Assembly: GCF_030690045.1 (NCBI RefSeq)
Contig: NZ_JAUYHK010000021.1
Location: 299,666 to 363,665, forward strand
Source: Thalassospira sp.
GTDB lineage: Bacteria > Pseudomonadota > Alphaproteobacteria > Rhodospirillales > Thalassospiraceae
Reading direction: 5' to 3'
Length of the DNA stretch: 64,000 nt
How positions within the stretch are numbered: position 1 is the first letter of the stretch; each line of letters starts with the position of its first letter. Positions 6,876-64,000 of this stretch are shown here, one piece after another. The position numbers were made by a program, and so were the translations under genes. Below the pieces are notes generated by a model. It was given only the letters and a program-made list of their open reading frames with translations. It was not told the DNA's origin and made no database searches.

Positions 6876-6977
6876 TTAGACCGCCCGCGCACTGCCTCCG
6901 TAATGACATTTCCACGCGCCGGTTATGGTCCGGTGGGGGTGCCTTCCGGTCTGTCTGTTTTTATGCCGCTGCATCAT
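6876..6977 (-). CDS. Short ORF (33 aa) downstream of SOS leader copy 1, probably a truncated or decayed gene
   Basis: MMQRHKNRQTGRHPHRTITGAWKCHYGGSARAV*; the first codons match the MMQRYMDRQ start in copy 2. Confidence 0.4.
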   Translation of the reverse strand: MMQRHKNRQTGRHPHRTITGAWKCHYGGSARAV

Positions 6978-7005: not shown

Positions 7006-7039
7006 CAAAAACCCGCAAGGCACAAGGCTTTGCGGGTTT
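7006..7039 (-). terminator. Leader hairpin/terminator of SOS module copy 1
   Basis: Minus strand AAACCCGCAAAGC-cttgt-GCCTTGCGGGTTTTT. Confidence 0.7.
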
Positions 7040-7070: not shown

Positions 7071-7103
7071 CTTATGCCACAGCTAAAAGAACAAATCAAG
7101 AAC
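7071..7103 (-). promoter_or_regulatory. LexA (SOS) box overlapping -35, plus -10
   Basis: Minus strand GTTCTTGATTTGTTC (7089..7103) = GTTC-N7-GTTC; TTGATT-17 bp-CATAAG. Confidence 0.75.
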
Positions 7104-63741: not shown

Positions 63742-63824
63742 CCCGGAAGGCAACTCATTGTTTTTACAGTATTTTTGATCTGTATACGGTGCGCGGGGAA
63801 AGTTTTTCAGATTTTTTGAAAAAA

Positions 63825-63857
63825 GTTCTTGATTTGTTCTTTTCGCTGTGGCATAAC
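63825..63857 (+). promoter_or_regulatory. LexA (SOS) box overlapping -35, plus -10
   Basis: GTTCTTGATTTGTTC (63825..63839); TTGATT-17 bp-CATAAC. Confidence 0.78.
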
Positions 63858-63890
63858 AGAAAAGTCAAGGGGATAAATCCGCCCGGACCG

Positions 63891-63923
63891 AAACCCGCAA
63901 GGCCTTGTGCCTTGCGGGTTTTT
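63891..63923 (+). terminator. Leader hairpin/terminator between SOS promoter and ORF
   Basis: AAACCCGCAAGGC-cttgt-GCCTTGCGGGTTTTT, perfect stem plus T-run. Confidence 0.8.
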
Positions 63924-63948
63924 GCGTTTGGGCCAGAGGAAAGAGGCG

Positions 63949-64000
63949 ATGATGCAGCGTTACATGGACAGACAAGGCGACGGGCGTGCCCGCAAGAGGA
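63949..64000 (+). CDS. 5' end of SOS-controlled ORF, truncated by window end
   Basis: RBS GAGGAAAGAGG; ATGATGCAGCGTTACATGGACAGACAAGGC... = MMQRYMDRQGDGRARKR. Confidence 0.6.
   Translation, partial: MMQRYMDRQGDGRARKR

Follow-up and report, generated by a model that had tools for sequence, protein, structure and literature searches.

A dispersed peptide-encoding repeat of Thalassospira carries a LexA-type promoter and a terminator-like leader shared with a podovirus-type gene cluster

The right end of the window, by which we mean the whole 64,000-nucleotide stretch of Thalassospira sp. DNA that was analysed, runs into a repeated unit in which a LexA-type box over a promoter-like sequence, a conserved leader segment and a terminator-like hairpin are followed by a reading frame for a small basic peptide. 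The unit is present in tens of copies in this genome, its hairpin and its frame are conserved among them, it is amplified separately in two lineages of the genus, and its leader is held in common with a genus-wide phage-type gene cluster. The reading that we favor, with moderate confidence, is that of a LexA-repressed unit with a phage-type leader, which would by default yield an RNA of about 60 nt and by read-through a peptide, and which would have spread as a repeat.

The copy at the right end (copy 2, forward strand) occupies 63803–64000 with its 5' part, with weaker similarity extending back to about 63750, and runs past the contig end. The preliminary description had reported a LexA-type box, a promoter and a GC-rich hairpin with a T-run in this region, and all three are real and lie where it had placed them. 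The box, GTTCTTGATTTGTTC, spans 63825–63839 and is overlapped by a promoter-like TTGATT-17-CATAAC (63829–63857), predicted from sequence and kept among the copies, with the -35 TTGATT at 63829–63834, a spacer of 17 nt and the -10 CATAAC at 63852–63857. Past the predicted start lies a leader segment (63864–63890) that is conserved among the repeats and, in part, among the leaders of the phage-type cluster, and then a predicted terminator (63891–63923), made up of a perfect 13-bp GC-rich hairpin at 63891–63921 and a T-run at 63919–63923. The sequence GAGGAAAGAGG is found 5' of ATGATG at 63949, from where 17 codons of the peptide frame lie inside the window (63949–64000). The end of the window is also the end of its contig, and contig C16 opens with a segment identical to the last 141 bases of the window, with which the frame was finished as MMQRYMDRQGDGRARKRMTGGWKSHYGGILPVR, a basic peptide of 33 residues. 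Copy 1, on the reverse strand, has a LexA-type box by motif match (7089–7103), a promoter-like sequence TTGATT-17-CATAAG (7071–7099), a terminator-like hairpin (7009–7039) and a complete peptide frame, MMQRHKNRQTGRHPHRTITGAWKCHYGGSARAV, that is read within the window (6876–6977). The stem is perfect over 13 bp in copy 2, as described earlier; that of copy 1 has a single A.C mismatch and thus 12 of 13 pairs. A generic promoter and terminator scan of the window listed neither the copy 2 promoter, which has 8 of 12 consensus matches against a cut of 9, nor the copy 2 hairpin, whose stem runs into the T-run.

The motif GTTC-N7-GTTC occurs twice in the 64-kb window against 1.77 matches expected by chance, and therefore proves nothing alone. 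Across the genome it occurs 130 times as against 94 for the control, an excess approximately equal to the number of repeat elements, and the 17-mer around the box, TTCTYGMTWTGTTCTTT, is found 36 times while its reversed control is never found. Thus, most of the genome's excess of LexA-type boxes belongs to one repeat. In this genome, GTTCTACTTTGGTTC lies 48 bp upstream of the single lexA gene, and GTTCCTTTTATGTTC lies upstream of recA. Since both genes carry a GTTC-N7-GTTC box, an SOS reading of the repeat boxes is reasonable, and the earlier identification of a LexA operator is credible, the motif being the published alphaproteobacterial one (PMC3323433, PMC8565304). The organism's own class of LexA box stands here in promoter position, over the -35. 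The repeats share this direct-repeat box with the described alphaproteobacterial LexA regulon (PMC3323433, PMC8565304), but differ from it in that the box here stands in about 40 copies before a peptide gene rather than a repair gene. Elsewhere in the window's genome (G000) we noted another box, GTTCTTATTTTGTTC, at G000:C2:610342-610356, 950 bp after element L025 and immediately 5' of an ORF starting MQNTLKPPSDHAGRTLPGEGWSHP, which could be an ordinary SOS gene.

Where two copies had been counted previously, at least about 40 places in the window's own 4.23-Mb genome match a 200-bp query, among the matches listed. The copies begin near the position equivalent to 63803 and are between 300 and about 1050 bp long, their 3' part being modular and variable, and many of them lie at or near contig ends, that of the window included. 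We found no transposase, terminal repeat or target duplication for the repeat: its 5' edge shows no terminal repeat, its 3' ends vary and no clean empty site was seen. A search with joined flanks for such sites recovered left flanks, with the right flanks mostly absent or a different interval of about 700 bp present. Amplification as a dispersed repeat is well supported. Dispersed non-autonomous repeats of bacteria are known as MITE- or REP-like, and the present unit resembles them in its tens of intergenic copies, its bursts in particular lineages and its association with breaks in assembly and synteny; it differs in having a promoter and a conserved coding frame and in the failure to find terminal repeats or target duplication. 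No published account of such a repeat was found in the open-access literature. Tandem peptide units 1.3–1.8 kb apart were seen in G005 L105 (C2:1898357 and 1899641) and in G156 (C22:2771 and 4543), possibly as a sign of local duplication.

Each of the 107 leaders examined has a terminator-like hairpin, by a finder that allows one mismatch; the inner stems come in 38 distinct forms, and some stems are short. Among the stems are compensating sets such as CCGCAAGGC/GCCTTGCGG, CCGCAAAGC/GCTTTGCGG, CCGCGAGGC/GCCTCGCGG and CCGCTGCCG/CGGCGGCGG, and the 62-nt RNA of copy 2 folds with -32.9 kcal/mol (z -4.5). The leader hairpin thus combines a stable GC-rich stem, a T-run and compensating changes, as an intrinsic terminator would. 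An argument for function had earlier been drawn from its conservation in both window copies; these are not independent evidence, because both come from one amplified repeat family. The hairpin is, however, retained in all the leaders examined, well beyond these two copies. An alternative, that the hairpin is only the terminator of the upstream gene, draws on the several copies, both window copies included, in which that gene is co-oriented with the repeat. However, the hairpin travels with the element beside unrelated genes in either orientation (14 co-oriented and 23 opposed in the window's genome, by a crude longest-frame call) and is situated downstream of the element's own promoter, and we regard this explanation as highly improbable. 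The suggestions that the leader gives rise to a short RNA or acts as an attenuator are plausible from its sequence. A search of Rfam for a known RNA family returned best hits far under the gathering scores.

The proposal that copy 2 precedes imuA/imuB or another repair gene did not survive extension of the sequence beyond 64000, as the completed frame is the 33-residue peptide, without known homologues. The core of this peptide is usually GGW[KR]SHYGG, and a frame with this core is present in 83 of 92 leader copies, the 83 belonging to four genomes. Of the nine copies lacking it, three are truncated at contig ends, and the remaining six continue differently after the hairpin; these six are the phage-cluster copy L056, the leader-only copies L055 and L060, which are leaders without the peptide in the window's genome, and copies of G024, G001 and G015. 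Because W, Y and GG were required in the core search, the constancy of these residues is in part built in. Independently of this requirement, W is followed by K or R in 83 of 83 copies, encoded by AAA, AAG, AGA, AGG, CGG or CGA, with swaps that include AAA to CGG; the next residue is S in 78 and the one after it H in 80 of the 83. Both glycine codons of the core use all four wobble bases, the glycines changing at the wobble position only, and indels in the N-terminal part of the peptide keep the frame. The pooled dN/dS of the frame, at 0.50–0.70, is only moderately below 1. The real frame has the top score of the three and stands 2.5 sd over a column-shuffle null, which equals its score in at least one of 200 trials. 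A stop falls inside the peptide profile match in four copies, and in L100 and L133 it lies within the variable tail past the core. Together, these patterns of change support a peptide that is translated and moderately constrained, with a C-terminal tail free to vary. A second frame overlapping at the RTGG of the Trp codon was dropped by eye, the wobble changes of the glycines being non-synonymous in it. About 30–60 nt past the peptide stop the repeat copies have a further conserved segment, CAAGACGCCCGAGTTGCGTCTTG / ATGACGGGAGAGGTGCGTCTTG, possibly a hairpin or another short ORF.

It could be argued that the working product is the SOS-induced, terminated RNA of about 60 nt, made from many loci, with the peptide frame as a passenger. 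This would suit the fact that neither the hairpin nor the leader segment is lost from any copy or from the phage cluster, as well as the other sequence found past the hairpin in L055, L060 and the copies of G024, G001 and G015. A pure RNA gene, however, leaves the coding-type change in the downstream frame unexplained, and we consider this alternative unlikely.

The peptide matched no curated family in searches against Pfam, NCBIfam and PHROGs profiles. Searches of phages gave two hits at E 5 and those of plasmids none, while outside the genus the best E in a search of 297 genomes was 0.0017, which is the chance level for that number. TisB of E. coli and SidA of Caulobacter are LexA-controlled small hydrophobic or membrane proteins from single genes. 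The present peptide is like them in being a very short protein behind a LexA-type promoter, but it is basic, is encoded in many copies and resembles no curated family in sequence. Because it has only about 33 residues, standard annotation may overlook it.

The same box, leader and hairpin are found 5' of the structural operon of a podovirus-type cluster that is present across the genus. The leader was recovered from each of the 25 Thalassospira genomes searched, in most of them as a single copy. Nineteen single-copy loci were examined, in which the leader sits behind two conserved genes of unknown function and, in most, an MGSLFS-type gene is recognised after it; the order of genes around it is preserved throughout the genus. 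The cluster of the window's genome covers about 20 kb (G000:C8:206149-226058, loci L091 and L092) and encodes a terminase, a head-tail adaptor, a major head protein, tail and fibre proteins and an S24/CI-type repressor; no integrase or replication gene was recognised among the cluster genes searched. It may be a domesticated element resembling a gene-transfer agent. Relatives of 17–20 kb recur in IMG/VR, where all 31 portal contigs that reach 65% identity and extend far enough upstream carry the box (background 0.009 per stretch), and 26 of 73 contigs tested also have a hairpin by a strict rule; the leader is absent from the more distant contigs. The exact box and promoter pattern of the repeats had no match in IMG/VR, which holds related leaders with a somewhat different -10 region. 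Since the cluster leader is genus-wide and the repeats are not, we infer that the leader passed from cluster to repeats and not the reverse. In G001 and G015 (L147/L148) a second copy of the LexA-type leader with its hairpin, located at about 1.9 kb of L147, lies upstream of an ORF resembling an MFS-type transporter; thus, the leader stands also before an unrelated gene.

The presence of an S24/CI-like gene adjoining the cluster raises the question of whether the box is the operator of that phage repressor rather than of LexA, and many cluster leaders do contain TTGATTTGT-N22-ACAAATCAA around the -10. Yet in many copies of the repeat this inverted repeat contains imperfections (AAAGTCAA), and the motif belongs to the class carried by lexA and recA in the window's genome, which makes such an assignment very unlikely. 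The layout also brings to mind the late promoter of lambda-type phages, in which a leader terminator (pR'-tR') is relieved by the antiterminator Q. Both have a promoter, a short leader and a terminator-like hairpin followed by phage structural genes, but here a LexA-type box lies on the promoter and no Q gene is recognisable. By analogy, the hairpin could be a conditional terminator that an antiterminator from the cluster would open, with cluster and repeats switched together, as the promoter and hairpin directly behind two conserved cluster genes and the conserved segment between start and hairpin might indicate. The layout makes such a link attractive, but searches of Pfam and PHROGs, with sequence profiles only, gave no match to an antiterminator or Q family for either upstream gene, and we consider the link distinctly unlikely.

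By profile search the peptide is present in six Thalassospira genomes, and no convincing match was obtained in other genera of the order. Placed on a 29-genome recA tree, the carriers require at least two changes, with the window's genome on one branch and a five-genome clade on another, and by this comparison the peptide family is amplified separately on two branches. The distribution may reflect two gains, one gain with losses, or transfer between lineages. The copies mostly group according to lineage, and the window's genome shows a recent burst; copies of G005, G010 and G016 often share places, while those of the window's genome do not. The site after gyrB has a copy in the window's genome and no box in the relatives read. 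Within the carrier clade several left flanks, and not the right ones, are common with an element-free genome, and one copy of G016 has a left flank matching one G005 copy and a right flank matching another, which fits recombination between copies.

In the scheme that we favor, LexA would bind GTTC-N7-GTTC over the -35 and repress the unit, and DNA damage would lift the repression and allow RNA polymerase to start near 63864. Most transcripts would end at the hairpin, about 60 nt on, and the fraction reading through would be translated into a basic peptide of about 33 residues with the GGWKSHYGG-type core. A leader composed of the box, promoter, conserved segment of about 27 nt and hairpin, homologous to that of the cluster's structural operon, would have been joined to the peptide gene and multiplied to about 20–40 copies in two Thalassospira lineages, with recombination between copies reshuffling their flanks. 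The repeat is probably selfish or hitchhiking. A more speculative and rather improbable extension is that the cluster and the roughly 40 peptide units constitute a DNA-damage network, sharing one LexA/terminator leader and switched together, the cluster being domesticated and possibly gene-transfer-agent-like and the repeats forming a chromosomal swarm of satellites of the phage leader, with a peptide that would act on the particle, on DNA or on the spread of the repeats themselves.

The family thus appears to be an undescribed, genus-restricted group of small proteins that was spread by amplification of a repeat with an SOS-type promoter. If confirmed, it would be an example of a regulatory leader of phage type spreading along a chromosome and widening the damage response, here in two lineages of one genus, and it would offer about 40 natural replicates for the study of LexA control, leader termination and small-protein function.
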